Assembly (NCBI GenBank): GCA_903907745.1
Contig: CAIVPF010000159.1
Location: 1-54,689, forward strand
Direction: 5' to 3'
Length of the DNA: 54,689 bases
Origin: an uncultured Cytophagaceae bacterium
Lineage (GTDB): Bacteria; Bacteroidota; Bacteroidia; Cytophagales; Spirosomataceae
The stretch's first letter is position 1; each line of letters begins with the position of its first letter. The notes beneath the pieces were generated by a model that was given only the letters and a program-made list of their open reading frames with translations, made no database searches and was not told where the DNA came from. Both the position numbers and the translations under genes were made by a program. Shown here piece after piece: positions 6,870 to 26,446 of this stretch.

Positions 6870-6899
6870 TTCTAAGGATCATTTAAATTTAAAAATGTC

Positions 6900-8456
6900 A
6901 TGAAAACAAAATTAATTTCCAAAATATACCATATCGCTTTGGCAAGCATATTCGTATTTGGACTATCGTCTTGCTCAGATTTTTTAACTGAAAAGGCACC
7001 GTCCAATTTAACGCCTGAAAGTTTCTATACTATCCCGGATCATGCGGAAGCAGCGATTGCGGCTACTTATTCTGAATTGAGGTTTATAGGTAATGGAGCG
7101 GGTATTTTCTCGGCCAACTGGCAATTGTTAGAGGCTCTAACGGGAACTTCTACCACGGAGACTGCTCAGAATTCAGATTTGAACAACCTGTATGGTTTGG
7201 TTCATGATGGATATACCGTTCATTTGGTTCAATATTGGAGTGGATTATATAAAGTAATCGCTCAAGCAAACCAAGTTATAGAGAAAGTTCCAGGGATTAC
7301 GCCGATGGATGCGAAACAAAAAAGTAAGATCTTAGGAGAAGCTCGTTTCTTACGTGCATCTGCTTATTTTACTGCGGTTCGTTTATGGGGCGATGTGCCT
7401 TTGATCACCAAACCACAAACAGCTTCTTCTGAAGATTTTCTTCCGGCAAGAGCTCCTGTAGAATCAGTTTACAAATTGATCGTGGAAGATTTAATCGCTG
7501 CGGAAGCTGCTGGATTAGATTGGATGGATACGCGTGGTCGCGTGGGAACAGCTGCGGTAAAGGCTCAATTAGCTGAAGTGTATTTAACGATGGCAGGTGG
7601 TTCTTTGAAAAAAGGAGCGAGTCATTACAAATTAGCTGCGGATAAGGCATTTGAAGTAATTAGCTATGCGAAGAGTAATCCTTCATCGGTTGGTTTGTTT
7701 ACAACGTATATGGATGTACACAAAGAAAGCTTAAAGAATCGTTTGGAGCATTTATACATGATTCAATACAATACAACGGTTTCTGGAAATCCAATGGGTA
7801 ATTTCTTCCCTAACTTTAAGCCGGTAACCTATTCGGGTCCTGGAGGAACGGGATCTTCGGTACCTACTCCTTCTTTCTATAATTCATATGAGACAGGAGA
7901 TCTGCGCACGAAGAATCAAGAAGGTTATTTCTACACCAGTTATTATACAAACGGTAACGGAGCTCCTTTTGAATTAAATGCACCATATGTATTTAAGCAC
8001 TTTAATACAACGGCTAATGGATACTCGGGTGTAGCTGGAACACGTAATGATAATTTAAACGTTCCTCAAATTCGCTATGCGCAAGTATTATTAACTTATG
8101 CAGAAGCTCAAAATGAAGTGGGTGGTCCAACGGCTGATTCATATGCTGCTTTTAAAGCGATTCGTGATCGTGCTAAATTAACTACTCCTGATTTGGGAAC
8201 GTATTCACAGGCTAGTTTCAGAAATGCGGTTTGGAAAGAGCGCTGGCATGAATTATGCTATGAGCAAATCACTTGGTTTGACATGGTGCGTTTGAGAAAG
8301 GCGTTTAATGAAACCACAAGAACGTTTGAAGATTTTGTGGGTCATACCAACCTTAGCTCCAATCAAAAATTACAAGACAAGCATTTGTTGCTTCCTTTGC
8401 CAAAGGCAGAGATGTTGAACAATCCTAAATTAACTCCTCAGAATCCGGGGTATTAA
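6900..8456 (+). CDS. SusD/RagB-family outer membrane glycan-binding lipoprotein
   Basis: 518 residues. A lipoprotein signal ends at LSSCSDF with the lipidated Cys at about residue 25. Typical SusD blocks follow: FLTEKAPSNLTPESFY at the mature N-terminus, an alpha-helical TPR-like core with EARFLRASAYFTAVRLWGDVPL, and a C-terminal region with VWKERWHELCYEQITWFDMVRL and LLPLPKAEMLNNPKLTPQNPGY. The protein forms the lid of the SusC channel encoded just upstream and helps capture substrate. The two genes form one transcript that ends at the hairpin near 8478-8515. The actual ligand cannot be read from the sequence. Confidence 0.95.
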   Translation: MKTKLISKIYHIALASIFVFGLSSCSDFLTEKAPSNLTPESFYTIPDHAEAAIAATYSELRFIGNGAGIFSANWQLLEALTGTSTTETAQNSDLNNLYGLVHDGYTVHLVQYWSGLYKVIAQANQVIEKVPGITPMDAKQKSKILGEARFLRASAYFTAVRLWGDVPLITKPQTASSEDFLPARAPVESVYKLIVEDLIAAEAAGLDWMDTRGRVGTAAVKAQLAEVYLTMAGGSLKKGASHYKLAADKAFEVISYAKSNPSSVGLFTTYMDVHKESLKNRLEHLYMIQYNTTVSGNPMGNFFPNFKPVTYSGPGGTGSSVPTPSFYNSYETGDLRTKNQEGYFYTSYYTNGNGAPFELNAPYVFKHFNTTANGYSGVAGTRNDNLNVPQIRYAQVLLTYAEAQNEVGGPTADSYAAFKAIRDRAKLTTPDLGTYSQASFRNAVWKERWHELCYEQITWFDMVRLRKAFNETTRTFEDFVGHTNLSSNQKLQDKHLLLPLPKAEMLNNPKLTPQNPGY

Positions 8457-8552: not shown

Positions 8553-9728
8553 ATGAGAAAAAATTTACTCTTCGCCATTTTACTGATTTCAAGCTTGTCT
8601 ATTTCTGCACAAACTCCATTTTCAGTCGTATATACCTCGGGCCAAGAGGGCCATAAAACTTACCGCATTCCCGCCATCATCAAAAACAAACAAGGACATT
8701 TACTGGCCTTTGCCGAAGGGCGCGTGCATGGATCAGGGGATTTTGGCGATATCAATATCGTTCTGAAAATGTCCCGCGACCAAGGTCGCACGTGGTCAGC
8801 CCCCCAAACGCTTGTCGATTACGATTCGCTCCAAGCCGGGAATCCCACCCCCGTTCTCGATACTACTGATCCTCGATTTCCCCAAGGCCGAATTTTTCTC
8901 TTTTATAATACGGGCAATAACCATGAAAATGAAATTCGAGAAGGGAAGGGGCTACGGGAGGTTTGGTATAAAACGTCTACAGATGGCGGTTTAACTTGGT
9001 CTACAGCCGTGAATATTACTTCACAAGTTCATAGGCCAAATCAACCTGCGCGAAATCCTACCTATACCTTCAAGGAAGATTGGCGGCATTATGCCAATGG
9101 ACCAGGCCATGGGATGCAATTCACCCAAGGGCCACATGCAGGTCGAATACTCATCGCTGCCAACCACTCCGAAGGTCCTCGCGGCGAACGAGGATCCGAT
9201 TACCGCGCTCATTCTTTTTACACAGATGACCACGGAGCTACGTTTCACCTAGGGGCCTCCATTTCAATCCCAGGAAGTAATGAATCCTCGGCTACCGAAA
9301 TTTCGGGGGGTCGGCTTATGATGAATATACGCAACCAACGAGGGGATATACGCCAACGAATCATCGGCCTCAGCGACGACGGCGGCGCCACCTGGAAAGA
9401 AACCTATTTTGATGCTCAATTGCCCGATCCTATCTGCGAAGGAAGTATTTTGACAATCGCTCAGGCGAAGGGTAAAAATATCCTTGCTTTCTCTAATGCA
9501 GCTGATGTCAAAAGGCGAGATCAACTCATTTTGCGTATTTCATATGACGATGGCAAAACCTGGCCAAATGCCAAGCTCATCGCTCAATCGAGCACAGAGG
9601 AGGAAGCCAAACATGATTTTGCGGCCTATTCTGATTTGGTTCTGGTTAATAAAAAAACGGTCGGGATCCTATATGAACGGAAGGATTATTCGCAAATTGT
9701 ATTCTCCGCGATTCGCTGGAACGAATAG
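8553..9728 (+). CDS. nanH: Secreted exo-alpha-sialidase (GH33)
   Basis: 391 residues with a signal peptide of about 20 residues ending SISAQ. The family hallmarks are present. YRIP at 37-40 supplies the first Arg of the carboxylate-binding triad (Arg38), and SGDFGDI places the acid/base Asp at about residue 63. At least four Asp-box repeats (SxDxGxTW type) are visible: SRDQGRTW at 74-81, STDGGLTW, SDDGGATW and SYDDGKTW, with a degenerate copy in TDDHGATF. This is the catalytic six-bladed propeller only, without an added carbohydrate-binding module. The enzyme would release terminal sialic acids from glycoconjugates outside the inner membrane. It follows the SusC/SusD genes but sits behind a terminator and has its own start region with TAAACCTATG overlapping the ATG. 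No sialic acid catabolic genes (nanA, nanE) are in the window. Confidence 0.9.
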   Translation: MRKNLLFAILLISSLSISAQTPFSVVYTSGQEGHKTYRIPAIIKNKQGHLLAFAEGRVHGSGDFGDINIVLKMSRDQGRTWSAPQTLVDYDSLQAGNPTPVLDTTDPRFPQGRIFLFYNTGNNHENEIREGKGLREVWYKTSTDGGLTWSTAVNITSQVHRPNQPARNPTYTFKEDWRHYANGPGHGMQFTQGPHAGRILIAANHSEGPRGERGSDYRAHSFYTDDHGATFHLGASISIPGSNESSATEISGGRLMMNIRNQRGDIRQRIIGLSDDGGATWKETYFDAQLPDPICEGSILTIAQAKGKNILAFSNAADVKRRDQLILRISYDDGKTWPNAKLIAQSSTEEEAKHDFAAYSDLVLVNKKTVGILYERKDYSQIVFSAIRWNE

Positions 9729-12716: not shown

Positions 12717-14168
12717 ATGGAAAATAAAAAAACGAATACAGATCGGCGGGACTTTCTCAAGACTGCCACATTAGCCTCAGCCGGTTTCATGATTGTTCCT
12801 CGCCACGTATTAGGTGGAAAAGGATTCACTGCACCGAGCGATAAATTAGTTGTCGCAGGTATCGGCGCCGGCGGAAAAGGAAAATCCGATTTAAAATATT
12901 TCTACGACAGTGGAAAGGCGGATATCGGTTACCTCTGCGACGTAGATGATCGCATGGCCAAAGACTCCGTAGCGGCCTATCCGAAAGCCAAATACTACAA
13001 AGACTGGCGTGTGATGATGGAAAAAGAATCGAAGAATTTCGATGCGGTTTCTGTTTCTACCCCAGATCATAACCACGCGGTGCAAGCCATGGCCGCGATG
13101 CAATTAGGCAAGCACGTATACGTGCAAAAGCCAATGACGCATGATATTTTTGAGGCACGTATGCTGACCCAAGCCGCCGAAAAATACAAAGTGGTGACCC
13201 AAATGGGAAATCAAGGTTCATCCGGCGACGGAGTTCGTCAGCTCGTAGAATGGTACGACGCCGATATCATCGGGGATGTACATACCGTACAAATTTGGAC
13301 GAATAGGCCGATCTGGCCTCAAGGGATTCCTTGGTCCACCGCGAAGCCACCGGTTCCATCGGAATTGGATTGGAATTTGTGGTTGGGAACGGCTCCTTAT
13401 AAAGATTACGTAGATAATTTAATTCCAGGCTCATGGCGTGGATGGTGGGATTATGGTACAGGTGCTTTGGGTGATTTAGGTTGCCACTTAATGGAAGCTC
13501 CTTTCCGGGTACTTGGTTTAAAATATGCATCAGATGTCCAAGCGAGTGTGAGCAGTGTGTTCACGGCCTTCGGAAAACGTGGTGTCTTCTTAGATTCTTG
13601 TCCTCCAAGTAGCCATGCGACATTGACATTCCCGAAAACAGATAAGACCAAAGGTCCTATCACCATGCACTGGATGGATGGTGGTATCAAGCCAGAGCGT
13701 CCGGAAGAATTAGGTCCAGATGAGATGTTTGGCGACGGAAACTCAGGTATCTTATTCATCGGTACCAAAGGAAAAATGATGGCCAGCGAATATGCAGCTA
13801 ATCCACGTTTATTGCCTTTATCTCGCAACCAAGAAGTGAAAGTGCCTCGTAAATTAGAGCGCGTTCCAGGTAGCGCAGACGGTCACTACGCCCAATGGGT
13901 AGAAGGTGCCATCGCTGGATATGGTAAAAAACAATTGAGTTCTCCTTTTGATTTAGCAGGTCCATTGACCGAAGCGATCCTAATGGCGAATTTAGCGATT
14001 CGCGTAGCGGATATGCCTTTCCCTCGCAAAACAGGAAACGGCATGCATTACCCAGGTTCAAACACGAAATTGTTATGGGATAACCAAAACATGCGTGTGA
14101 CCAACTTCGATGCCGCAAACCAATTCGTTAAGCGTACATACCGCGAAGGCTGGACCTTAGGCGTTTAA
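12717..14168 (+). CDS. Tat-exported Gfo/Idh/MocA-family oxidoreductase
   Basis: 483 residues. The N-terminus TDRRDFLKTATLASAGFMIVP is a clear twin-arginine signal, so a folded cofactor-bound enzyme is exported. A Rossmann domain follows with VAGIGAGGKGKSDL, then VSVSTPDHNHAVQAMAAM and the catalytic-lysine motif YVQKPMTHD, where the usual EKP reads QKP as is common in the exported clade. The C-terminal substrate domain contains GSWRGWWDYGTGALGDLGCHLMEAP. Family enzymes oxidise or reduce a sugar hydroxyl with tightly bound NAD(P). A 14-bp hairpin terminator follows, and the next operon, with a c-type cytochrome and a second enzyme of this family, starts soon after. The start overlaps a TAAACCTATG motif. 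The substrate is unknown. Confidence 0.9.
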   Translation: MENKKTNTDRRDFLKTATLASAGFMIVPRHVLGGKGFTAPSDKLVVAGIGAGGKGKSDLKYFYDSGKADIGYLCDVDDRMAKDSVAAYPKAKYYKDWRVMMEKESKNFDAVSVSTPDHNHAVQAMAAMQLGKHVYVQKPMTHDIFEARMLTQAAEKYKVVTQMGNQGSSGDGVRQLVEWYDADIIGDVHTVQIWTNRPIWPQGIPWSTAKPPVPSELDWNLWLGTAPYKDYVDNLIPGSWRGWWDYGTGALGDLGCHLMEAPFRVLGLKYASDVQASVSSVFTAFGKRGVFLDSCPPSSHATLTFPKTDKTKGPITMHWMDGGIKPERPEELGPDEMFGDGNSGILFIGTKGKMMASEYAANPRLLPLSRNQEVKVPRKLERVPGSADGHYAQWVEGAIAGYGKKQLSSPFDLAGPLTEAILMANLAIRVADMPFPRKTGNGMHYPGSNTKLLWDNQNMRVTNFDAANQFVKRTYREGWTLGV

Positions 14169-14180
14169 TTTTTATTCTTT

Positions 14181-14212
14181 AAAAAGACCCAAGGAGCCTT
14201 GGGTCTTTTTTT
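14181..14212 (+). terminator. Rho-independent terminator after first Gfo/Idh/MocA gene
   Basis: AAAAAGACCCAAG and CTTGGGTCTTTTT form a long perfect stem with a four-base loop (GAGC), followed by more T. It lies 12 bases after the stop and separates this gene from the operon at 14274-20577. Confidence 0.9.
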
Positions 14213-14273
14213 ATTCGAATTCCGATTGCCAATTACCAATTTGAAAATCAAAACCTGTTTAATCAATCTAATC

Positions 14274-17200
14274 ATGTCCATCAAAATTAAAGGAGGATTA
14301 CTTTTAGCTGTCATTGCTTTCAGTTTGATCAGCTTTTTTCAACCTGAAGCACCCAAAACCATTGCCCTCAAAGATCACGCCCAAATCGCGCTCATCGGCG
14401 GAAATTTAGGTTCTCGGATGATCAATTACGATCATTTTGAAACCGAATTACATCTACGCTATCCAAATAGCCAATTGGCCGTCCGCAATCTATGTGACGG
14501 TGGCGATACCCCCGGCTTTCGACCTCATTCCGCCCGAAATTTACCCTGGGCTTTCCCCAATGCCGAACAATTTCAAGATGAATATGCCAATAAATCCGGC
14601 AGCGAAGGCCATCTCGATACCCATGACCAATGGATGAGCCGCCTGAAAACGGACATCGTCATCGGATTTTTTGGTTTTTCTGAATCCTATGAAGGGGCCT
14701 CTAAAATCCAGCGTTACAAGGATGAGTTGACCGCCTTTATCCAACACACCCGTTCTCAAAAATACAATGGCGTTTCCGCACCTACCTTAGTACTCGTTTC
14801 GCCCATCGCGTTCGAAGATGTAACAGCTCTTTACGATGTACCCAAAGGAACCGCTGAAAATATTCGCTTAGGTCAATACACCGAAGCGATGAAGGAAGTT
14901 TGTCTAAAAGAAAATGTGCTTTTCATTGATGTTTTCGCAGCTTCCAAGGCTTGGTATGCAGCGAGCAAATCGCCTTTGACCATCGACGGAATCCAATTAA
15001 ACAACGATGGCTATAAGAAATTAGCCCTTTATTTGACCGATCACGTATTTGGTAAGAAATCTGCGGAAGTAGAAGCGCGTCGCGCGGATGTATACGCCGC
15101 CGTAGCGGAGAAAAACTGGATGTGGCACAATGACTTCAAAATTCCAAACGGAGTTCACGTATATGGCCGTCGCTACAATCCTTTCGGACCAGATAATTAC
15201 CCCGCTGAAATCGAAAAAATTCGTCAAATGACCGCAAATCGGGAAGCGGCAATTCAAGCTGCGATTCAAGGAAAAGCATTTGACTTAGCTGCAGCCGATT
15301 CCAAAACGCGAAGCTTGGATCCCGTGAAAACGAATTTTAATCCGCAACAGAATGGAAGTTTAACGTATTTATTAGGTCAAGAGGCCTTGAATGCCATCAA
15401 AGTAGCTCCCGGTTATAAGATAGAGCAATTCGCCTCCGAAACCGAATTCCCTGATTTAGCGAAACCGGTTCAAATGACCTTCGACAACAAGGGCCGTTTA
15501 TGGGTCGTGTGTATGCCAAGTTACCCGCATTACAAACCCGGTGATCCAAAACCAAACGATAAAATCATCATTTTAGAAGATACAAATAAGGATGGGAAGG
15601 CCGACAAAGAAACGGTTTTTGCCTCCGGATTGCACGTGCCCGTGGGCATGGAAATCGCCCATAATGGCGTCTATATTAGCCAAGGGACAAATTTGGTTTT
15701 CTTACAAGATACCGACGGCGATGACCATGCCGATAAAAAAGAAGTGATTTTGAGTGGTTTCGACGATCACGATACACACCATGAAATCTCGGCTTTTGTG
15801 ACGGATGAGTCCGGTGCGATTTACATGGGTGAAGGGGTCTTTTTACATACGAATGTGGAAACTCCTTATGGAACGGTGCGTGCGACGAATGGTGGTTTTA
15901 TGCGCTATAACCCAGCACGTAAACATTTAGAGCGCGTGGCACAATTGTCCATTCCAAATCCTTGGGGCATCGCCTTCGATAAATGGGGACAAAATTTCTT
16001 CGCAGAAACCTCTGGACCCGATGTCCGTTGGATGATGCCTGGAACGACCAAAAACCGGTATGGACAAACAGGCCATAAATCCTTTAGTCTAATCGAGGAG
16101 AAACATTTGGTTCGCCCGACCTCCGGTTTGGAATTTGTATATAGCCGTCATTTCCCGGATAATGTGCAAGGTGATTTTTTAATTAATAATACAATTGGAT
16201 TTTTGGGGATGAAGCAGCACGAGTTGACCGACAAAGGTACCGGCTATGCCTTCAAACACCGTCAAGATTTGATCGTTGGGGAAGATCGTAATTTCCGCCC
16301 GGTGGATATGGAATTCGCACCCGATGGTTCCCTATACGTCATCGATTGGCATAATATTTTGATTGGTCACATGCAACACAATGCCCGCGATCCTTTGAGG
16401 GATCACTCGCATGGTCGGGTGTATCGCATCACCTATCCGTCTCGTCCATTGGTTACCCCGGCGAAGGTGGATGGTGCGTCGATCGACGAATTATTGGAAA
16501 ATTTGAAATTACCGGAATACCGGACGCGTTATCGGGTTCGTCGGGAATTACGTGGTCGCAATGCCGCGGATGTCTTGCCTCGGGTACGCACATGGGCTGC
16601 GAAATTGGACAAAAAAGACCCGAATTACGAGCATAATTTGTTAGAGGCTCTTTGGGTGACTTGGGGAATGAATAAGGTGGATCAAGTTTTATTGAACCAA
16701 TTATTAAATGCCAAAGATTACCATGCCCGCGCTGCGGCCGTTCGTGTCTTGCGCTATACGGGTCACCAAGTGCCGAATCAAGCAGCTTTATTAGCCAAAG
16801 CCGCACAGGATGAACATGGTCGGGTACGTATGGAGGCTTTCGTGGCGGCATCTTGGTTGCCGAAAGAAAAGGCTAACCCGATCTTTGATCTAGCGAAAAT
16901 GAAGCCATTGGACGAATGGATGGATAAGCCTTTCGAGATCGCTGTCGCACATGCCAATGGCGTGAATGTGGCCAAGAAAAAGGCGGCAGCTTTGGTAACG
17001 GATTTAAAAGGAAATGATTTAGACCTATTTACAGAAGGTCAAAAATTGTATGCCAAAGAAGGCTTTTGTAATACCTGTCACCAGACTAACGGAAAAGGTC
17101 TTACCGCTTCCGGATTCCCGCCATTGGCCGGGTCTATCTGGGTCACAGGAAATCAGGAGCGTTTAATCAAATTAGTGATCAAAGGAATAATGGGACCGAT

Positions 17201-17429
17201 GGAATTAAATGGCGTGAAATATGCTGGCCAGGTTCCGATGACGCCTTATGGAGGATTGATGACGGATAAGGAGATTGCGGCTGTTTTGACTTATGTTCGG
17301 AATTCATTTGGAAATAAGGCCAGTTCGATAGATCCTGCCAAAGTGAAGGAAATCCGTAGTAAAATAGCTGACAAAAAGGATTTGTATAACGCGAGTAGTT
17401 TATTGTCTGAACACCCTATTGAAAAATAA
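14274..17429 (+). CDS. PVC-type heme-binding protein: SGNH-like domain, propeller, HEAT region and cytochrome c
   Basis: 1051 residues from ATG 14274. A start at 14199 would put a second start inside the upstream terminator and lose the signal peptide that begins MSIKIKGGLLLAVIAF. Domains in order: signal or anchor (1-25); an SGNH/GDSL-hydrolase-like domain (about 35-270); a PVC-type membrane-bound-dehydrogenase propeller (about 370-730, with FDNKGRLWVVCMPSYPHYKPGD and GIAFDKWGQNFFAETSG); a HEAT-like helical part (about 740-900); and a cytochrome c domain with CNTCH at 932-936 and a likely axial Met in QVPMTPYG. Proteins of this type are thought to pass electrons from periplasmic sugar oxidation. 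The SGNH block I reads IGGNLGS and block V DGIQLN, so the expected Ser and His are replaced (Asn44, Gln241). That domain is probably catalytically dead or altered. It heads an operon with gaps of 2, 6 and 11 bases. Confidence 0.9.
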   Translation: MSIKIKGGLLLAVIAFSLISFFQPEAPKTIALKDHAQIALIGGNLGSRMINYDHFETELHLRYPNSQLAVRNLCDGGDTPGFRPHSARNLPWAFPNAEQFQDEYANKSGSEGHLDTHDQWMSRLKTDIVIGFFGFSESYEGASKIQRYKDELTAFIQHTRSQKYNGVSAPTLVLVSPIAFEDVTALYDVPKGTAENIRLGQYTEAMKEVCLKENVLFIDVFAASKAWYAASKSPLTIDGIQLNNDGYKKLALYLTDHVFGKKSAEVEARRADVYAAVAEKNWMWHNDFKIPNGVHVYGRRYNPFGPDNYPAEIEKIRQMTANREAAIQAAIQGKAFDLAAADSKTRSLDPVKTNFNPQQNGSLTYLLGQEALNAIKVAPGYKIEQFASETEFPDLAKPVQMTFDNKGRLWVVCMPSYPHYKPGDPKPNDKIIILEDTNKDGKADKETVFASGLHVPVGMEIAHNGVYISQGTNLVFLQDTDGDDHADKKEVILSGFDDHDTHHEISAFVTDESGAIYMGEGVFLHTNVETPYGTVRATNGGFMRYNPARKHLERVAQLSIPNPWGIAFDKWGQNFFAETSGPDVRWMMPGTTKNRYGQTGHKSFSLIEEKHLVRPTSGLEFVYSRHFPDNVQGDFLINNTIGFLGMKQHELTDKGTGYAFKHRQDLIVGEDRNFRPVDMEFAPDGSLYVIDWHNILIGHMQHNARDPLRDHSHGRVYRITYPSRPLVTPAKVDGASIDELLENLKLPEYRTRYRVRRELRGRNAADVLPRVRTWAAKLDKKDPNYEHNLLEALWVTWGMNKVDQVLLNQLLNAKDYHARAAAVRVLRYTGHQVPNQAALLAKAAQDEHGRVRMEAFVAASWLPKEKANPIFDLAKMKPLDEWMDKPFEIAVAHANGVNVAKKKAAALVTDLKGNDLDLFTEGQKLYAKEGFCNTCHQTNGKGLTASGFPPLAGSIWVTGNQERLIKLVIKGIMGPMELNGVKYAGQVPMTPYGGLMTDKEIAAVLTYVRNSFGNKASSIDPAKVKEIRSKIADKKDLYNASSLLSEHPIEK

Positions 17430-17431
17430 AT

Positions 17432-18316
17432 ATGAAAAATTATATCAAATTATGCCTTGGGATTGCCTTCGTTTTGCTTGCTGCTTTCTCTGGTTTTTCA
17501 GGAAATCTAGCACCCAAAAAGGCTAAAAAACCCTTCGTGGTTTTTGTTTGTGGGGATCATGAATATTCGGGGGAGTCGACGCTTCCATTATTGGCCGCCA
17601 TCTTAGAAAAACAATACGGCATTCGTACGAAAATTTTAAAATCCTTTCCTGATCAAAATGCCGAGAAAGATATTCCTGGATTAGAGGCTTTGGCTGAAGC
17701 GGATTTGGCCGTATTCTTTTTGCGCTGGCGTTTATTGCCTGCGGAACAGGTAGCCATGATGGAGGCCTATTTGAAATCAGGTAAACCGATGATGGGTTTT
17801 AGAACATCCACCCACTCATTCAATTATCCCAAAACGGATCCTTTATTTTCGTATAATGCTTGGGCCGAGCGCGCTTTCGGTGCGCCTCCGGGATGGGGTG
17901 GAAAAGCTCAACACACCCATTATGGCCACAACGCTTCCACAGATGCCAGCATTATTCCAGCCGCAGCGAAACATCCTATTCTAACGGGTGTGGATCCGGA
18001 ATTCCATGTGCGCTCTTGGTTATATCGTGTATTGCCGGATTTCCCGGTGAAAGGCACGGAATGGTTGCTCATGGGCAAGGCTGTGAATCCAGATAAGGCT
18101 GCGACGGACCAACCGATCGCCTGGACTTGGAAAAACGAATATGGGGGACGTGTATTTTTTACCACGATGGGGCATCCAGAAGATTTTTCTGTAGAACCTT
18201 TTCAGCGTTTAGTCGTCAATGCCATTCACTGGGAATTAGGCCTTTCTGTTCCTAAAAAATGGGCTGGTAAATTAGATATCAATGTTCCTTACCGAGGAAT
18301 GGTTAATTCAAAATAA
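17432..18316 (+). CDS. Secreted ThuA-domain protein
   Basis: 294 residues with a signal peptide (MKNYIKLCLGIAFVLLAAFSGFSG). The rest fits the ThuA-like fold (PF06283), a class I glutamine-amidotransferase-like domain. Visible blocks are VFVCGDHEYSGESTLPLLA, ADLAVFFLRWRLLPAEQVAMMEAYLKSGKPMMGFRTSTHSF, and GRVFFTTMGHPEDFSVEPFQRLVVNAIHWELG. ThuA was linked to trehalose and sucrose 3-keto metabolism in rhizobia. Secreted relatives occur widely beside Gfo/Idh/MocA dehydrogenases and PVC-type cytochromes, with no settled activity. Only 2 bases separate it from the cytochrome gene and 6 from the epimerase-like gene, so it is firmly part of this operon. Confidence 0.88.
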   Translation: MKNYIKLCLGIAFVLLAAFSGFSGNLAPKKAKKPFVVFVCGDHEYSGESTLPLLAAILEKQYGIRTKILKSFPDQNAEKDIPGLEALAEADLAVFFLRWRLLPAEQVAMMEAYLKSGKPMMGFRTSTHSFNYPKTDPLFSYNAWAERAFGAPPGWGGKAQHTHYGHNASTDASIIPAAAKHPILTGVDPEFHVRSWLYRVLPDFPVKGTEWLLMGKAVNPDKAATDQPIAWTWKNEYGGRVFFTTMGHPEDFSVEPFQRLVVNAIHWELGLSVPKKWAGKLDINVPYRGMVNSK

Positions 18317-18322
18317 ATCAAC

Positions 18323-19159
18323 ATGAAGTACAAAATTGCCATGAACACCCTGGTTTACGGACCAGATATGAACGAATCCATTATTCAGCATTTGTCCTAC
18401 ATCAAGGACGTAGGCTACGATGGCGTCGAAATCCCCATTTTTGTGACAGCCATGGATTATTGGAAACCTTGGAAGGCGGAAATTGATCGCCTCGGTTTGG
18501 AGGTTTTCACCGTGACCTTTTTAGGTGCGGATATGAATACCATTTCATCAGATTCTGCGGTACGCCAAAAAGGCATCGATTTTCTTAAAGAAGCTGTGGA
18601 TGTCACAGCCTATTTAGGCGCGTCCTATTTGTCGGGCCCTTTCCATTCCGCCTTGTCTGTATTTTCAGGCGCGGCGCCGGTCCAACAAGAACTGGATTGG
18701 TCCAAAGAAAGCATGTTAGCCGTCGCAGAACATGCGCAGAAAAAAGGGGTCATCCTAGGCTTAGAATATTTAAATCGCTTTGAGAATTACGTGGTTAGTA
18801 ACGCGGATCAATTGTACGCTTTGGTGAAAGCCATCAATCATCCCAATGTGAAAATCATGTTTGATACCTTCCATGCGCACATCGAGGAATTTAATACCGG
18901 TGAGGCCATGGTCCGCATTGCGGATGAAGTGGGTCATATCCAATTATCGGAAAGTACGCGCGCCACCTTAGGCGAGGGTCAGGTGCATTGGGACAATGTC
19001 TTCGATGGTCTTTCGCGGATGAATTATTCAGGTTGGTTAGTCGTGGAGGCATTCACGCCTTTGTTGCCAGCGGCTTGTATCTGGCGTAAAAACTATACGA
19101 CCGAGGCGGAATTAGTCAAAAAGAGTTACGAACATATTCAAAAGTATGTAGGAGTATAA
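18323..19159 (+). CDS. Sugar phosphate isomerase/epimerase-family TIM-barrel enzyme
   Basis: 278 residues, no signal peptide. It is a xylose-isomerase-like TIM barrel (PF01261) close in layout to ketose 3-epimerases, with YDGVEIPIF, LGASYLSGPFHSA, LGLEYLNRFENYVV, IMFDTFHAHIEE and WLVVEAF. The predicted divalent-metal ligands are Glu148, Asp181 and Glu242. The fourth position, His in D-tagatose/D-psicose epimerases, is Gln207 in GHIQLSE, as in hydroxypyruvate-isomerase-type members. It may interconvert keto sugars or act as a lyase on 3-keto-sugar compounds; related barrels do this beside Gfo/Idh/MocA enzymes. It is the only clearly cytoplasmic product of this operon, suggesting it acts on an imported product of the exported oxidoreductases. 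Confidence 0.85.
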   Translation: MKYKIAMNTLVYGPDMNESIIQHLSYIKDVGYDGVEIPIFVTAMDYWKPWKAEIDRLGLEVFTVTFLGADMNTISSDSAVRQKGIDFLKEAVDVTAYLGASYLSGPFHSALSVFSGAAPVQQELDWSKESMLAVAEHAQKKGVILGLEYLNRFENYVVSNADQLYALVKAINHPNVKIMFDTFHAHIEEFNTGEAMVRIADEVGHIQLSESTRATLGEGQVHWDNVFDGLSRMNYSGWLVVEAFTPLLPAACIWRKNYTTEAELVKKSYEHIQKYVGV

Positions 19160-19170
19160 ACGAATTTGCT

Positions 19171-20577
19171 ATGAAAAATAATCGTCGGGATTTTCTAAAA
19201 TTGAGCGGCCTTGGGGCTGTTGGCATGACCCATAACTGGTCAACCAAAACCACCGATATGGCACAAGCGCCGATGTCGGTGGCGCCGAAACAAATTTTTA
19301 ATATGTCGGGCTACGCAGCTCCGAAATTGGACGTCGTTCGAATCGGTTTTATCGGTTTAGGAAATCGGGGTTCAGGAGCCATTACGCGGGTGAACCGCAT
19401 CGATGGCGTTCAGACCATCGCGATTTGTGACATACGTCCTGAAAAGGCGCAGGCGGGAGCGAAGGCTTTGAAAAAAATGAATATTGAGCCAGTCGTGTAC
19501 ACGGAAAAGGAGGAGGCTTGGAAGGAAATGTGCCAGCGGGATGATATTGATTTGATTTACATCTGCACGCCTTGGTACTTACACACGCCCATGGCAGTCT
19601 ATGCGATGAAGCAAGGAAAACATGTGGCGATTGAGGTACCGGCGGCGACGACCTTGGATGAATGTTGGCAATTAGTGGAGACATCTGAAAAGACGAAGAA
19701 ACATTGTATGATGTTGGAAAACTGTTGCTACGATTTCTTCGAGTTATTGACCTTAAACATGGCTCGCCAAGGCTATTTCGGTGAACTTTTACACGTGGAA
19801 GGAGCCTATATTCATGATTTATTGAGCGCGAATTTTAAGCAAAATCAGTATTATGACAATTGGCGTTTGAAGGCGAATTTGCGTAATGGTAATTTATACC
19901 CGACGCATGGTTTAGGGCCGATTTGTCAGTTGCTAAATATTAATCGGGGCGATCAAATGGATTATTTGGTTTCCATGCAATCCAACGATTTTTCGATGCA
20001 CAATATGGCGGTGGAGCTTTCTGAAAAGGATCCCTATTACAAGACATTTGTAGACAAAACCTTCCGGGGTAATATGAATACTACCACCATCAAAACGAAC
20101 AAAGGCAAAACGATCATGGTTCAGCATGATGTGTCTAGTCCACGCCCTTATTCGCGCATTCATTTATTGAGTGGAACGAATGGGGTAGCGATGAAATACC
20201 CTGAGCCTCGCATTTCGGATCACCATCATGAATGGGTGAAGCCGGAGCAAATGGCGGAATTAGAGAAAAAATACGCTCCGCCGATCGTTGCGAAAATTGG
20301 TGAATTAGCCAAGCAAATCGGTGGCCATGGCGGCATGGATTTCATGATGGATTGGCGCTTAATCGATTGCTTGCGCAATGGATTGCCTTTAGATCAGGAT
20401 GTGTATGACGCGGCGGCTTGGAGTTCGATTGTGCCTTTGAGCGAAATGTCGGTGAATAATCGATCTAAATCGATCGACATCCCTGATTTCACCCGTGGTT
20501 CATGGAAAAGCAACGCGCCTTTGGATAATACCTTGAGTCAAGGAGGAACAACGGGGGTGAAGGTAGTCAAGAGTTAA
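19171..20577 (+). CDS. Tat-exported Gfo/Idh/MocA protein resembling GH109 alpha-N-acetylgalactosaminidase
   Basis: 468 residues. NNRRDFLKLSGLGAVGM is a twin-arginine signal. The NAD-binding motif is FIGLGNRGSGAI. The segments CTPWYLHTPMAVYAMKQGKHVAIEVPAATTLDECW and MMLENCCYDFFELLTLNMARQG, continuing to FGELLHVEGAYIHDL, recall GH109 glycosidases. Those cleave terminal alpha-GalNAc by an NAD-dependent oxidation-elimination-addition cycle at C3 with recycling of the cofactor. The activity would be periplasmic. It is the last gene of the operon and is closed by a terminator at 20605. With a sialidase in the same window, mucin-type or similar glycoprotein glycans are a plausible substrate. The exact specificity is not provable here, because GH109-like sequences include enzymes for other sugars. 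Confidence 0.78.
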   Translation: MKNNRRDFLKLSGLGAVGMTHNWSTKTTDMAQAPMSVAPKQIFNMSGYAAPKLDVVRIGFIGLGNRGSGAITRVNRIDGVQTIAICDIRPEKAQAGAKALKKMNIEPVVYTEKEEAWKEMCQRDDIDLIYICTPWYLHTPMAVYAMKQGKHVAIEVPAATTLDECWQLVETSEKTKKHCMMLENCCYDFFELLTLNMARQGYFGELLHVEGAYIHDLLSANFKQNQYYDNWRLKANLRNGNLYPTHGLGPICQLLNINRGDQMDYLVSMQSNDFSMHNMAVELSEKDPYYKTFVDKTFRGNMNTTTIKTNKGKTIMVQHDVSSPRPYSRIHLLSGTNGVAMKYPEPRISDHHHEWVKPEQMAELEKKYAPPIVAKIGELAKQIGGHGGMDFMMDWRLIDCLRNGLPLDQDVYDAAAWSSIVPLSEMSVNNRSKSIDIPDFTRGSWKSNAPLDNTLSQGGTTGVKVVKS

Positions 20578-20604
20578 ATTACCTTAAACGCAAAAACTAA
20601 AAAG

Positions 20605-20637
20605 AAAGCACGAAGAAATTCGTGCTTTTATTTTTTA
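20605..20637. terminator. Bidirectional terminator between GH109-like gene and DEAD-box helicase
   Basis: AAAGCACGAA (20605-20614) pairs with TTCGTGCTTT (20619-20628) over a GAAA loop. T-rich stretches follow on the plus strand, and the complement gives a T-rich stretch on the minus strand. It lies between two convergent genes and can serve both. Confidence 0.85.
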
Positions 20638-21990: not shown

Positions 21991-22824
21991 ATGGTCGGTC
22001 AGGACTTTCGGCATGCCTTGCATGCGGGCAATCGGGTGTATGGAACGCTGATCACCAACACGTCCCCCAAGATGTTTGATTCGGTCCTAAGTCTTGGATT
22101 GGATTTTGTGTTTTTATGTACGGAACATTCAACCTATAATCCGGAGACATTGAGCTGGATGTGTCGGGCCTTCAAAGCCGCCGGTATCAATCCCGTCGTG
22201 CGCATCTTAGAACCGAGTCCCTTTTTAGCAACCCAAGCCCTGGATGCCGGTGCATGTAGCGTTCTAGTTCCTTATGTAGAAGATGTGGAGGATGTCTTGG
22301 CTTTAATTGGGGCCGTCAAATACCGACCCTTAAAAGGTAAAAAATTACAAAGAATCTTGCATGGTGATGAGACATTGTCTGCGGAAATGCAAGCTTACAT
22401 ATTGGCTCATAACCGACATAACTCCTTGTTAATCAATATCGAAAGCCCAACGGGCGTTCAAAATTTAGATACTTTTTTATCATATAAGGCCCCTGGTGGC
22501 TCAGGGGTAGATGGCATTGTTTTGGGTCCGCATGACTTATCGACTTCCTATGAGATGCCAGAAAAATATGCCTCGGAAGAATTTTTGAGACTGAGTCGGG
22601 GCATCATTCAAGATACGCGGGCTAAGGGCGTCGCGGCTGGGGGGCATACGGGATATCGAAATAGTTTGGATTTGTCGATCGACTGGGCCCAACATGGGGC
22701 CAACATCATCCTGCATTGTTCTGATTTCTATTTTGCCGCTGATAAAGCGCAACATGATTTTAATCGCATCAAAAATTCCCTCGGCGAATCCTCAACTAAT
22801 TCCACGAGTCAAGAAAGTATCTAA
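21991..22824 (+). CDS. HpcH/HpaI-family aldolase
   Basis: 277 residues, cytoplasmic. It has the class II pyruvate-type aldolase signatures of the HpcH/HpaI family (PF03328): LDFVFLCTEHSTYNPETL near the N-terminus, ACSVLVPYVEDVEDVLALIGAVKY, the metal-binding Glu in LLINIESPTGVQNLD, and the Asp in GIVLGPHDLSTSYEMP. Related enzymes split 2-keto-3-deoxy acids or 4-hydroxy-2-ketoacids to pyruvate plus an aldehyde. The substrate is unknown. It heads a plus-strand operon with two secreted glycosidase-like proteins and a phosphoesterase, so a keto-deoxy sugar acid from glycan breakdown is plausible. The gap to the next gene is 11 bases. The C-terminal tail after residue 262 is Ser/Thr-rich and not conserved-looking. 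Confidence 0.87.
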   Translation: MVGQDFRHALHAGNRVYGTLITNTSPKMFDSVLSLGLDFVFLCTEHSTYNPETLSWMCRAFKAAGINPVVRILEPSPFLATQALDAGACSVLVPYVEDVEDVLALIGAVKYRPLKGKKLQRILHGDETLSAEMQAYILAHNRHNSLLINIESPTGVQNLDTFLSYKAPGGSGVDGIVLGPHDLSTSYEMPEKYASEEFLRLSRGIIQDTRAKGVAAGGHTGYRNSLDLSIDWAQHGANIILHCSDFYFAADKAQHDFNRIKNSLGESSTNSTSQESI

Positions 22825-22835
22825 ACCCATAGCGC

Positions 22836-25142
22836 ATGAAAAAATGTAGCATTCTATTCTTTTTGAGCTTTTTTTGCTTTCCCATCTTCGCTCAGCTCAT
22901 CGATCTAAGTAAGTCGACTTTGCTCGTTTCAAATTCCATCAAGCTACAACAGCGAGCTACCTATGTGCGGGTCCTTCAGGAAGAAATCCGCCTTCGAACG
23001 TCGCTAAACCTCCCGATCAGCGCGGGAAAATCTCCGCACATCGCCTTGGCTTTAAGCAGTGATCAGGCGGTGGACGGCTACCCCTTACCTGCACTTCCGG
23101 TGAATTCACCAGCCCGAAAAAAAGAGGGATTTGCGATGGTTCAATCAGGAGAAGTCCTATGGCTTATCGGCGCGGATGAACGGGGCGTTTTATTTGCCAT
23201 CGGGGCGTTTTTGCGCCAGGCGAATTTGACGAAGTTAAAAATACAATTTGACAAAAAAGACGAGATTCAAAGCGCACCGGCCTATGCTTTGCGGGGCCAT
23301 CAATTAGGCTATCGAAATACGGCCAATTCCTGGGATGCTTGGGATTTTACACAATACGAGCGATACATTCGTGAATTGGCCCTTTTTGGGACGAATGCCA
23401 TCGAAAATATACCCTTCCAAGATGGCGCGCCAGGTCCGCATATGAAGATTCCGCGGGATGAGATGAACCTAAAGATGAGCGAAATCTGTCGGGATTATGG
23501 CCTCGAATATTGGGTTTGGACGCCGGGCGACGTGGATTTATCGGATCCGGTGAAGTTCAAGGAAGAGGTGCGCCAACATGCCGAATTTTATAAAAAATGT
23601 CCCCAATTAGACGGCGTATTTTTCCCAGGCGGAGATCCAGGAAGCAACCATCCCAAAGATGTAATGCCCTTCTTAAAAGCCATCGCGGCGGAATTGAAAA
23701 TTTCCCATCCCAAAGCCGGCATATGGATTTCTTTGCAAGGATTCAGCGATGCTGATGTGAATTATTTTTATGCGTATTTGACGAAAAATCGGCCGGATTG
23801 GTTGACCGGCGTCGTCTCAGGGCCCAGTAGTCCCGACATGGCGAATACTCGCTTCCGTTTACCCAAGCAATACAAACACCGGCATTATCCGGATTTGACG
23901 CATACGGTGCGTTGTCAATATCCGACGGAAAACTGGGATCAGGCCTTTGCCTTAACGGAGGGTCGTGAAGTATCGAATCCGCAACCCTATTATTATGCGA
24001 AGGTTCACAATCGCTATGCGGAGCTGACCGATGGTTTTTTGGCCTATTCGGATGGCGTCCATGATGATGTGAATAAGGTGGTTTGGAGCCAAATGGCTTG
24101 GGATCCGACCAAAGATGTGCGCGAGGTGATGGTCGAATATGCCCGTTTCTTTTTCGGTTCGGGGGTAGCGGAAGCGGCGGCGGATGGGGTGTTGGCTTTG
24201 GAGCGCAATTGGGTAGGACCCGTGGAAGAAAATGGGGGGATCGAGACGACATTTGCTTTTTGGCAAAATTTGGAAATGAAAAATCGTGATCTGGCGGCGA
24301 ATTGGCGCTGGCAACAAATCGTCATGCGCGCCTATTACGATACCTATGTGAAACGAAGAAAAGCATATGAACAACTATTGGAAAAACAAGCCAATGTCAT
24401 CTTAGCCAATGCCAAGGAATTAGGCGCGGAAAAGGCCATAGAATTAGCGCTTGCGAAGGTCAATGAAGCGGATCAAAAACGGCTTCATCCGGAATTACGT
24501 CAAAAAATAGTTGACTATTGTGCCGCACTATTTAAGTCGATCGGCATGCAAACCAGCGTGCCTTTATATCAGGCCTCTGGCGCGGAACGTGGGGCGATTT
24601 TGGATTTCATTGATTATCCCTTGAATAACCGTTGGTGGCTCGCCGACGAATTCGAGAAAATCAAAAAAATGCCTTCTGAAGAGCAAAAATTAGCGCGTAT
24701 ACATGTGTTAGCCACTTGGGAAAACCCGGGCCCTGGTAGTTATTATGACAATATTTCGGATTTATCGAAAGGCCCGCGTGTGAAAACACGGACGGAGGAT
24801 GCGACGGATGTGTTATGGGAAAATAACGGGATGAGTCGGAAGCGTTTATCGACCCAGCTCTACCAAAATTTCCCCAAATTAGACTATGCGGATTTAGATC
24901 CCAATGGACAATACCTCATTCGGATTTCGGGATATGGGGACGCGCTATTGCGCGTAGATGGGGAGCGGATCGAGCCCACGGCCTATCCCAAAGGTTTTGA
25001 GGAATTCAAAGAATTTCCATTAAGTCCCAAATATGTGAGTGATGGGAAATTGTCGATTAGCTTTGATGAGCCAGAGGAATCGCATTTAAATTGGCGTCAG
25101 CATTCTAAGGTTTTTGATATATGGGTCTTAAAAATCAATTAA
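22836..25142 (+). CDS. Secreted glycoside-hydrolase-like protein (GH20/GH67-type N-terminal domain plus TIM barrel)
   Basis: 768 residues with a signal peptide (MKKCSILFFLSFFCFPIFAQ). Residues about 25-150 resemble the alpha/beta domain that precedes the barrel in GH20 and GH67 enzymes, with IALALSSDQAVDGYPL and VLWLIGADERGVLFAIGAFLRQ. A barrel-like region follows (about 155-420) with YALRGHQLGYRNTANSWD, YERYIRELALFGTNAIENIPF, YGLEYWVWTPGD, LDGVFFPGGDPGSNHP and GIWISLQGF, then a helical domain and a C-terminal beta domain. Acidic residues in the barrel are candidates for catalysis, but I cannot assign a known family or catalytic pair. It overlaps the next gene by 22 bases. I am sure it is a secreted carbohydrate-active-type protein, not of its reaction. 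Confidence 0.75.
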   Translation: MKKCSILFFLSFFCFPIFAQLIDLSKSTLLVSNSIKLQQRATYVRVLQEEIRLRTSLNLPISAGKSPHIALALSSDQAVDGYPLPALPVNSPARKKEGFAMVQSGEVLWLIGADERGVLFAIGAFLRQANLTKLKIQFDKKDEIQSAPAYALRGHQLGYRNTANSWDAWDFTQYERYIRELALFGTNAIENIPFQDGAPGPHMKIPRDEMNLKMSEICRDYGLEYWVWTPGDVDLSDPVKFKEEVRQHAEFYKKCPQLDGVFFPGGDPGSNHPKDVMPFLKAIAAELKISHPKAGIWISLQGFSDADVNYFYAYLTKNRPDWLTGVVSGPSSPDMANTRFRLPKQYKHRHYPDLTHTVRCQYPTENWDQAFALTEGREVSNPQPYYYAKVHNRYAELTDGFLAYSDGVHDDVNKVVWSQMAWDPTKDVREVMVEYARFFFGSGVAEAAADGVLALERNWVGPVEENGGIETTFAFWQNLEMKNRDLAANWRWQQIVMRAYYDTYVKRRKAYEQLLEKQANVILANAKELGAEKAIELALAKVNEADQKRLHPELRQKIVDYCAALFKSIGMQTSVPLYQASGAERGAILDFIDYPLNNRWWLADEFEKIKKMPSEEQKLARIHVLATWENPGPGSYYDNISDLSKGPRVKTRTEDATDVLWENNGMSRKRLSTQLYQNFPKLDYADLDPNGQYLIRISGYGDALLRVDGERIEPTAYPKGFEEFKEFPLSPKYVSDGKLSISFDEPEESHLNWRQHSKVFDIWVLKIN

Positions 25143-26446
25143 TCCTCGGCCTATTTCTGCTCGGATTTTTTCCTGCCCTTTCGCAATCTAAATCATTGAT
25201 TTCAGAGGTGGATTTACAGTTTTTGCAGGGGATGGCGAAGGATGTCACGGAGGCATCTCGGATTTATCCGGGTCAAAAAATTAGCCAGGACTTTGGCCCT
25301 AATCAAACGGGTGGGGTGCTGATTCGTCCCGGTGGCAGGTCCAGTTATCCCGCATTTTGGATTCGGGATTATGCGATGTCCTTGGAGGCAGGATTTGTGA
25401 AAGCCTCTGAACAAAAGCATATGCTTCTTTTGACCGCCAAGACCCAAGCGGATCAAACAATGCAGACGAAGTGGGGCACGCAGATTCCAAAAGGGGCCAT
25501 CGCAGACCACATCCGGATCGATGATTCGGAGCCGATTTATTTTCCGGGCACCTATGATGCGTTTAATCAAGGGAAACCTGTTTGGGGCATGCAGCCGCCT
25601 TTTTGCGATGCCTATTTTTTTATTCATATGGCCTATTATTATGCAGTTCATGAAAAGCTAGGGAAGGTATTAAAGGAAAATAAGTTAGGTATCCGATTAA
25701 TTGATCGCTTGGAAATGGCTTTTGAATCGGTTCCTCAAGCCGAAAATAGTCCCTTGGTTTCGGTGACGGATGCGAATCGTGGTGTGGATTTTGGTTTTCG
25801 AGATGCGGTGTATATGACGGGGGATTTATGTTATTCGTCTTTATTGAAGTACCAAGCAGCCCGCCAATTAGCCGAAATGCAACGTGACCTCGGTGATTTA
25901 AAAAAATCCCAACACTATACGCGCATCGCTTTAGCGCTCAAAAAAGCTATTGCGGATCGTTTTCAACTTGATTCCGGATTTTTGAAAGCCAGTACGGGAA
26001 CCAGTGGGCAGGCGGATGTATGGGCGACGAGTTTGGCCCATCGGCTCGGTATTTTACCTAGGGCAACGGTTCAGAAAGCCTCTAAAAAATTGAATGATGG
26101 CTATGAAAAAGGCGATTTAAGTTATCGTGGAAATATTCGCCATATCTTACGAAGCGATGATTTCAGTGCGGAAACCGCCTGGGAAAAAAGCGAAGCAAAA
26201 AAGGATAGCTATCAAAATGGAGCCTATTGGGGTACACCGGTGGCTTGGGTGGCGAATCTGATGGCTGAGACGCGGGTTGATCTCGCAAAAAAACTTATCC
26301 AAGAATATATACATGAATTACGTGAAGGGGATTTCCGGAAAGGGGAGGGCTTTGGCGCTCCTTGGGAATGTTTCTCTCCTCAAAGCGCCCAAAATCCCGT
26401 TTATATGACTAGTGTTACCTGTCCTCTCATCGCATTAAAACCATAA
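25121..26446 (+). CDS. Secreted six-hairpin glycosidase-like protein
   Basis: 441 residues with a signal peptide (MGLKNQLILGLFLLGFFPALSQ). The start lies 22 bases inside the preceding gene and is supported by this signal. The sequence has the (alpha/alpha)6-barrel look of six-hairpin glycosidases: RPGGRSSYPAFWIRDYAMSLEAG with the typical WIRD, PPFCDAYFFIHMAYYYA, DFGFRDAVYMTGDLCYSSLLKYQAARQLAEM, QADVWATSLAHRLGIL and NGAYWGTPVAWVANLMA. Candidate acid and base residues are Asp in WIRD and Glu in PWECF, but this is a guess. It is probably co-transcribed with the GH20/GH67-like protein upstream and the phosphoesterase downstream, and would act on glycan in the periplasm or outside. Confidence 0.78.
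   Translation: MGLKNQLILGLFLLGFFPALSQSKSLISEVDLQFLQGMAKDVTEASRIYPGQKISQDFGPNQTGGVLIRPGGRSSYPAFWIRDYAMSLEAGFVKASEQKHMLLLTAKTQADQTMQTKWGTQIPKGAIADHIRIDDSEPIYFPGTYDAFNQGKPVWGMQPPFCDAYFFIHMAYYYAVHEKLGKVLKENKLGIRLIDRLEMAFESVPQAENSPLVSVTDANRGVDFGFRDAVYMTGDLCYSSLLKYQAARQLAEMQRDLGDLKKSQHYTRIALALKKAIADRFQLDSGFLKASTGTSGQADVWATSLAHRLGILPRATVQKASKKLNDGYEKGDLSYRGNIRHILRSDDFSAETAWEKSEAKKDSYQNGAYWGTPVAWVANLMAETRVDLAKKLIQEYIHELREGDFRKGEGFGAPWECFSPQSAQNPVYMTSVTCPLIALKP

Follow-up and report, generated by a model that had tools for sequence, protein, structure and literature searches.

LacABC is composed of a GMC flavoprotein, a cytochrome c and a Gluconate_2-dh3-like subunit, and the rhizobial ThuAB system of trehalose utilisation combines ThuA with a Gfo/Idh/MocA dehydrogenase that makes 3-keto disaccharides, in the cytoplasm and without a known cytochrome. 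In Caulobacter and Pedobacter, LacABC acts as a lactose 3-dehydrogenase alongside a DUF1080 3'-ketolactose hydrolase (PMC9007349; papers are cited throughout from excerpts of their text), and in Bacteroides a 3-keto-disaccharide pathway is encoded by BT2156-BT2160, of which BT2158 is a periplasmic glycoside 3-dehydrogenase (PMC11300592). Deletions of BT2157 and BT2158 gave no growth defect on raffinose-family sugars (PMC11501099). Lac161_ORF7 (TIGR02604, HEAT_2 and cytochrome c; from a cosmid assigned to Chthoniobacter, Verrucomicrobia) was purified from E. coli and freed glucose from lactose with a Km of 1.8 mM and a kcat of 13.2 per s, and a new beta-galactosidase family was proposed (PMC5342196). 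This is the sole biochemical report that we found on DUF7133/TIGR02604 cytochrome proteins, which are numerous in the genome studied here and have no agreed function. Here we describe five genes on a 54,689-nucleotide stretch of DNA (hereafter the window; contig C159 of a 2.79-Mb, 93% complete, Aquirufa-like metagenome-assembled genome (MAG) of the Bacteroidota), in which such a cytochrome protein stands between a BT2158-like oxidoreductase and ThuA. Two of the enzymes are of the twin-arginine translocation (Tat) type:

12717-14168, + strand: GfoA, Tat-type Gfo/Idh/MocA oxidoreductase, BT2158-like, kin of glycoside 3-dehydrogenases (PF01408, PF19051, NF058561, structure 8tdf)
14274-17429, + strand: the cytochrome protein, 1051 residues, with SGNH-like domain, DUF7133/TIGR02604 propeller, HEAT repeats and cytochrome c (Pfam/NCBIfam, structure model, fold search)
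17432-18316, + strand: ThuA, exported (PF06283, 63.8 bits, above the cut-off of 33.4)
18323-19159, + strand: TIM barrel, ketose 3-epimerase-like (AP_endonuc_2; PF01261, 142 bits against a cut-off of 31.1)
19171-20577, + strand: GH109-like enzyme, Tat-type (PF21252, 150.1 bits against 27; structure 6t2b)

The places of these genes, as given in an initial annotation made from the sequence alone, and their shared strand were confirmed by open reading frames (ORFs) and domain matches; the genes are tightly packed, with intergenic gaps of 105, 2, 6 and 11 bp. Its call of two Tat-type Gfo/Idh/MocA enzymes, one of them GH109-like, also held: an RR-DFLK motif opens both proteins, TatC has one match in the genome, and the GH109-like enzyme carries the PF01408 domain (70.9 bits against 24) as well as PF21252 and matches 6t2b, a GH109 structure, at E 2e-103. 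The cytochrome protein and ThuA begin with hydrophobic N-termini, and the TIM barrel has no signal (judged by eye).

Conservation was examined around the best 80 of 285 relatives of the cytochrome protein from a scan of genome contigs; 71 of these loci had at least 1 kb on both sides of the cytochrome gene and were used to score ThuA. ThuA adjoins the cytochrome gene on the same strand in 62 of the 71, upstream in 50 and downstream in 12. In the reverse search, 16 of 148 genomes of the order contained ThuA orthologues, 17 in all with that of the window counted, and 14 of the 17 have the cytochrome protein within 1.5 kb. Distance matrices of the two proteins were correlated (r 0.80, n = 67 loci including the window, reached in 0 of 999 permutations), a result also expected from vertical descent alone. 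In a clade made up of five loci (L076, L101, L103, L105 and L110) no ThuA adjoins the cytochrome gene; in L105 a distant ThuA lies close by on the opposite strand. ThuA itself matched no solved structure at E 1. In three loci of that clade, from Aquiflexum/Cognataquiflexum (L101, L103, L110), the cytochrome gene lies near a cluster of what look, by eye, like DUF1501-type, planctomycete-type cytochrome, DUF1080 and propeller lipoprotein genes.

The other neighbours are distributed differently. GfoA lies upstream of the cytochrome gene in 9 of 80 loci, or 7 of 72 when those with at least 1.5 kb upstream are counted, all in the Aquirufa group, and a GH109-like gene lies downstream in 6 of 80; GfoA and GH109-like neighbours all fall in one 21-row clade of the cytochrome-protein tree, where the isolates sharing a clade with the window are Aquirufa and Sandaracinomonas. 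The full five-gene order was found in the window, L032, L037, L038 and L043 (in L037 and L038 the contig stops within the end genes). In sister Aquirufa genomes its halves stand apart, with GHy (a gene described below), GfoA and the cytochrome gene together (L179, L182, L046) and ThuA with the TIM barrel elsewhere in genome G018 (L178). We therefore rejected the five-gene order as a widely conserved system, as it was found only in the Aquirufa group, and the gene-order conservation that the initial annotation had named as its check gave way to the ThuA-cytochrome pairing. Since GfoA and GH109 neighbours are confined to the Aquirufa group and the ThuA pairing is wide, the five-gene unit is young, and ThuA plus the cytochrome protein is the wide unit. 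A TIM barrel gene comes next in 22 of 80 loci; 11 of these loci do not belong to the Aquirufa group (36-41% identity). SusC/SusD-family neighbours, counted up to 3 kb upstream or up to 6.5 kb downstream, occur in 13 of 80.

Two taxonomic oddities were seen among these loci. MAGs titled Spirosoma fluviale (L032, L037, L038, L042, L043) cluster with Aquirufa in the tree of the cytochrome protein, apart from the type strain (L086), so that their titles look wrong. A Flavobacterium-labelled contig (SUN052; L079, 8003-13057) carries ThuA, the cytochrome gene and the TIM barrel and groups with Spirosoma utsteinense, which indicates either horizontal transfer or a mislabelled genome.

To describe the cytochrome protein, from its hydrophobic N-terminus it runs through an SGNH-like domain, the propeller and HEAT repeats to one cytochrome c domain. 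The "multi-domain cytochrome" of the initial annotation thus stood as a cytochrome with a hydrophobic N-terminus, while the SGNH-like domain and the dehydrogenase-like propeller had been overlooked:

14376-15035, + strand: SGNH-like domain, approximately residues 35-254 (limits approximate, set by eye; PF13472, 29.2 bits, under the cut-off of 32.9)
15378-16436, + strand: DUF7133 propeller, residues 369-721, resembling soluble pyrroloquinoline quinone (PQQ) glucose dehydrogenase (Pfam, Foldseek, hhalign)
17031-17303, + strand: cytochrome c domain, residues 920-1010, with CNTCH at 932-936 and M989 as likely axial ligand (PF00034, 37 bits against 21.3)

Matches to TIGR02604 (224 bits, cut-off 122.2) and DUF7133 (PF23500, 249.7 bits, cut-off 27), together with the C-terminal CNTCH, place it among the PVC-type heme-binding proteins. 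The cytochrome part makes up the last ~130 residues of the protein and holds the sole CxxCH among ORFs of at least 100 residues in the window. Across 81 sequences (the 80 relatives and the window), the heme site is invariant, with C932, C935, H936 and M989 in all 81, as are H499, H502 and H503 of the propeller. The catalytic residues of SGNH/GDSL enzymes are presumably the Ser of the GDS block and the His of the DxxH block; at these positions (placed by eye) we found N44 in 80 of 81 sequences and Q241 in all 81. An ordinary SGNH esterase was rejected on the grounds of these replacements.

We then compared an AlphaFold model of the protein, built from 46 sequences (mean pLDDT 78, pTM 0.80, several loops below pLDDT 50), with the PDB by Foldseek. 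For the SGNH part there were BT4096 (7br2; the top match of the whole search), which we take to be an SGNH-type enzyme, and Axe2 acetylxylan esterases. The propeller matched soluble PQQ glucose dehydrogenase (8re0, 5min, 1c9u) at E about 1e-5, with TM-scores of 0.46-0.50 by target, and also luciferin-regenerating enzyme (5d9b, 1.1e-5). The three-domain nitrite reductase 2zoo (31% identity, 5.6e-4) was read as a match via the cytochrome part. In profile comparisons, nine DUF7133 paralogues of the genome align to the GSDH profile at E 2e-12 (hhalign), and the window subfamily aligns to these paralogues at E 4e-67. PF07995 (GSDH) was not reported for the window protein at 1e-3, and in a paralogue (C108) it scored 26.8 or 24.9 bits in two runs (cut-off 25); the best match of the propeller sequence to solved structures reached only E 0.067.

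The paralogues of the same genome show further combinations of these domains. There are 13 DUF7133 matches in 2.8 Mb, and the genome totals 28 Gfo, 22 AP_endonuc_2, 16 DUF1080 and 5 ThuA matches. At L142 (5838-9479) a single gene fuses ThuA, DUF7133, HEAT and a cupredoxin and adjoins a Gfo gene; its copper domain is of the plastocyanin/azurin type (PF00127, 43.1 bits against 21.2), stands where the paralogues have cytochrome c, and is accompanied by no CxxCH. At L153 we found a ThuA-GSDH-PKD-cytochrome c-CBM6 fusion. In L143 the gene before DUF7133 encodes a Tat-type Gfo enzyme, L144 and L152 have DUF1080 next to DUF7133 genes, and in L147 a TIM barrel comes after one. In total, 7 of the 13 DUF7133 genes are fused to, or directly adjoin, a member of the ThuA, Gfo, DUF1080 or AP_endonuc_2 family. 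Among the seven, both L144 genes are counted through a single DUF1080 gene, and the one from L152 matches DUF7133 only marginally (25.9 bits against 27). The enrichment is P about 3e-6 for 7 of 13 and 2e-5 for 6 of 12, both rough values (2400 genes, 15 DUF1080 and independence of neighbours assumed).

Next to the cytochrome gene, GfoA has as its best NCBIfam model NF058561, the BT2158-type glycoside 3-dehydrogenase (465.5 bits over residues 9-469, under the equivalog cut-off of 750), and as its nearest solved relatives 8tdf and 8tdh (E 2e-89); by sequence it is BT2158-like and kin to glycoside 3-dehydrogenases. The theme of 3-keto-glycoside chemistry in the initial annotation was therefore right, and a cytochrome-linked, dehydrogenase-like protein does lie beside GfoA. 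The TIM barrel matches D-tagatose 3-epimerases at E 2e-29 and the 3-keto-D-glucoside 4-epimerase 6wn6 at E 1e-15. Relatives of GfoA at E 1e-100 or better occur in 136 of 291 genomes of the order. Among the matches listed, we sought partners within 1.5 kb in 30 loci, one of them the window. The partner was this cytochrome protein in 7 (all in the same genus) and a GMC dehydrogenase in 6. In another 4, a ThuA-GSDH-cytochrome c fusion begins within that distance; it was read whole in 2 of the 4 places (L254 and L255; Pfam for L254). The order in L251 is SusC-SusD-GfoA-GMC-Gluconate_2-dh3, and L252 and L253 hold GMC, GfoA, Gluconate_2-dh3, TIM barrels and DUF1080 (BLAST to labelled proteins), with an additional small cytochrome c in L252, where Pfam supports both the subunit and the cytochrome. 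In the window, three GMC and three subunit queries gave no tblastn match at E 1e-3; a GMC gene is present on another contig of the same genome (L259).

Taken together, our observations point, at slightly less than even chances, to an oxidative (3-keto type) glycoside-breakdown set of the Aquirufa group, built around ThuA and a self-contained cytochrome-linked enzyme whose own propeller would provide the electron outlet. The propeller, which resembles soluble glucose dehydrogenase (sGDH), would oxidise a sugar or glycoside; the electrons would be handed to the cytochrome c domain within this polypeptide and from there reach the respiratory chain. The degenerate SGNH domain may bind substrate without ester hydrolysis. 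Processing of the oxidised glycoside would fall to ThuA, the BT2158-like GfoA and the GH109-like enzyme, acting in the periplasm with NAD kept bound, and the epimerase-like TIM barrel could convert the imported keto-sugar in the cytoplasm. The propeller-cytochrome protein would thereby take the place of the GMC (LacABC-type) dehydrogenase found beside GfoA in some relatives.

Several observations weigh against this pathway. ThuA is missing beside the cytochrome gene in 9 of the 71 usable loci. The propeller fold matches are loose (12-14% identity, root-mean-square deviation 8-9 A), and aligned directly to GSDH the window subfamily reaches only E 0.12 at a probability of 0.49%, which is not significant. 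We take the catalytic His and the Arg of the RNPQG motif to be the PQQ-site residues of sGDH; the active-site-loop His is in register with the window protein, and at the position aligned with the Arg all 81 sequences have a Pro, P561 (the register comes from that same E 0.12 profile alignment). The PqqE model found nothing over its cut-off in the 93% complete MAG and none of the 14 controls exceeded it either; PQQ could be scavenged from elsewhere. Among the 30 GfoA loci, 13 have none of the three partner types within 1.5 kb. Where the partner is the fusion (4 loci), it is separated from GfoA by a gene on the opposite strand. Finally, Lac161_ORF7, which has the same propeller-HEAT-cytochrome architecture, cleaved lactose (PMC5342196).

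This last result underlies a strong rival reading, in which the propeller would be a distinct type of glycosidase, similar to a beta-galactosidase, and the HEAT repeats and cytochrome c serve docking or signalling, with no sugar electrons passing through the protein. Lac161_ORF7 was made in E. coli, which presumably makes no PQQ and may have left the heme unattached, so that its activity seems to need neither, and the simple reading is therefore a hydrolase. The assay, as the excerpts of the paper describe it, scored glucose only and would not tell hydrolysis from oxidative cleavage (PMC5342196). An invariant CxxCH and Met in 81 of 81 sequences and the cupredoxin that replaces cytochrome c in a paralogue are moreover hard to explain unless electron transfer matters, and we consider the glycosidase reading rather unlikely. 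Lower still we place an independent two-gene system of ThuA and the cytochrome protein, for instance for a non-glycan oxidation, that came to lie beside GfoA and GH109 in the Aquirufa group by chance. The Dyadobacter loci speak for it and against the glycoside pathway, as the pair stands there between housekeeping-type genes without obvious sugar-gene neighbours (ORFs by eye), and so does the five-locus clade without adjacent ThuA; on the other side are the frequencies of TIM barrel (22/80) and SusC/SusD-family (13/80) neighbours and the DUF7133 paralogues with DUF1080, Gfo or TIM neighbours, and on balance such a chance association appears quite improbable.

The electron route of the initial annotation, in which GfoA and the GH109-like enzyme oxidise glycosides and pass NADH electrons to the cytochrome, is the least supported of those considered, and we think it very unlikely. 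It agrees with the adjacency of GfoA and the cytochrome gene, which persists in two deep clades of the cytochrome tree within the Aquirufa group, and with the paralogous pair of Tat-type Gfo and DUF7133 in L143. However, the GfoA-cytochrome pair is restricted to one group among the loci examined, and the cytochrome chain carries a dehydrogenase-like propeller of its own. GH109 enzymes typically regenerate NAD inside one turnover, which also speaks against this route, and to our knowledge Bacteroides, the host of BT2158, has no comparable cytochrome c outlet. BT2158 functions in that anaerobe (PMC11300592). The initial annotation was thus right in its theme and wrong in its unit, and its route for the electrons is probably wrong as well.

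Returning to oxidation by the propeller, a wider version would make ThuA and the SGNH-like/propeller/HEAT/cytochrome protein an undescribed respiration-coupled glycoside-cleaving module of Cytophagales. One ThuA-propeller pair would oxidise and cleave, the carrier would be exchangeable (cytochrome c or blue copper), the GMC dehydrogenase would be replaced in 3-keto-glycoside operons, and the "beta-galactosidase" of the sister protein would be oxidative cleavage read as hydrolysis; we regard this version as doubtful. We found no description of a ThuA-cytochrome module in the open-access literature, and there is no mention of ThuA in the excerpts of PMC5673643 or of "PVC-type" in those of PMC11495043. 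The ThuA pairing, the fusions in cis and the cupredoxin swap single out two partners, ThuA and the propeller, and heme reduction as the readout that would distinguish a hydrolase from a dehydrogenase. If the chemistry is oxidative, it would add a further kind of electron outlet to 3-keto-glycoside breakdown and bear on the purpose of ThuA.

The surroundings of the operon in the window contain a terminator-like hairpin and further candidate members:

3732-8456, + strand: SusC/SusD pair (67-68% identical to the SusCD that, in L251 from another family, directly adjoins a GfoA relative and a GMC dehydrogenase)
20604-20629, listed for both strands: terminator-like hairpin (hairpin scan)
21991-26446, + strand: HpaI-like aldolase, GHx and GHy (neighbourhood in relatives, GHy fold)
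28354-29142, - strand: DUF1080, 3-keto-disaccharide hydrolase family (PF06439, 139.7 bits)

For GHx (22836-25142, 768 residues), hints of a GH20-type N-terminal domain and of DUF4838 all stayed below threshold. GHy (25121-26446, 441 residues, hydrophobic N-terminus) had no Pfam match at 1e-3, and its relative in L179 matched Glyco_hydro_94 at 1.4e-5 (24.4 bits, under the cut-off of 27). Its model (11 sequences, pLDDT 75.9) is a helix barrel closest to neutral invertase, GH116 beta-glucosidase and GH37 trehalase at 11-15% identity, which suggests that GHy may represent an unclassified glycosidase family. GHy was found in 9 of 291 genomes of the order at E 1e-20 and adjoins GfoA and the cytochrome gene in 5 of 30 GfoA loci, and HpaI-GHx-GHy also lies downstream of the operon in L040 and L043. 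These three genes are therefore probable parts of the system, and the locus is probably larger than five genes, covering about 12.7-26.4 kb. Judged by its sequence relatives, the SusC/SusD pair possibly belongs to it too; a BNR/sialidase-like gene (8553-9728, PF13088) stands between that pair and the operon.

The DUF1080 gene that the initial annotation had noted about 8 kb away was indeed found, 7.8 kb past the operon end and on the minus strand. It may belong to the system; near the cytochrome gene in the 80 loci it had no close counterpart (one 25% match, L106; DUF1080-like ORFs by eye in 4). Terminator-like hairpins as a class are not enriched in the window (12 against 12.1 expected from shuffles). 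A Bacteroidetes-type promoter pattern gave 1 match in the window against 3.2 expected, away from the operon, and a sigma-70 scan of the window gave 9 against 20.3 in shuffles.

Compared with known systems, the window protein shares with sGDH/GSDH the Foldseek match of its propeller and a loop His apparently in register and presumably catalytic, but differs in having no reported PF07995, a Pro at the putative PQQ-site Arg position and no PqqE over cut-off in its genome. With ThuAB the operon shares ThuA in company with Gfo/Idh/MocA enzymes, whereas ThuAB is cytoplasmic and is not known to include a cytochrome. Lac161_ORF7 has the same propeller family and the same propeller-HEAT-cytochrome c order (compared by described domains); no SGNH domain is reported for it in the excerpts, and its named neighbours there (ORF6 and ORF8-12, several of them "hypothetical") include no ThuA or Gfo by name (PMC5342196). 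The BT2156-BT2160 pathway resembles the window in its BT2158-like Gfo enzyme and in having a TIM barrel and DUF1080 in the neighbourhood, although GfoA stays at 465.5 of the 750 bits and the window adds ThuA and the cytochrome protein (PMC11300592). LacABC is similar in that a dehydrogenase of three components oxidises glycosides in the periplasm, and in the epimerases and DUF1080 close by (PMC9007349), and loci with GMC, Gluconate_2-dh3 and a GfoA relative exist in other Bacteroidota (L251, L252, L253). The window differs in giving no GMC or Gluconate_2-dh3 match, and in its cytochrome protein a dehydrogenase-like propeller shares one chain with the cytochrome and has ThuA as its partner. Because these GMC/Gluconate_2-dh3/GfoA loci resemble the LacABC/DUF1080 system, the window looks like a pathway of the LacABC kind with another dehydrogenase.

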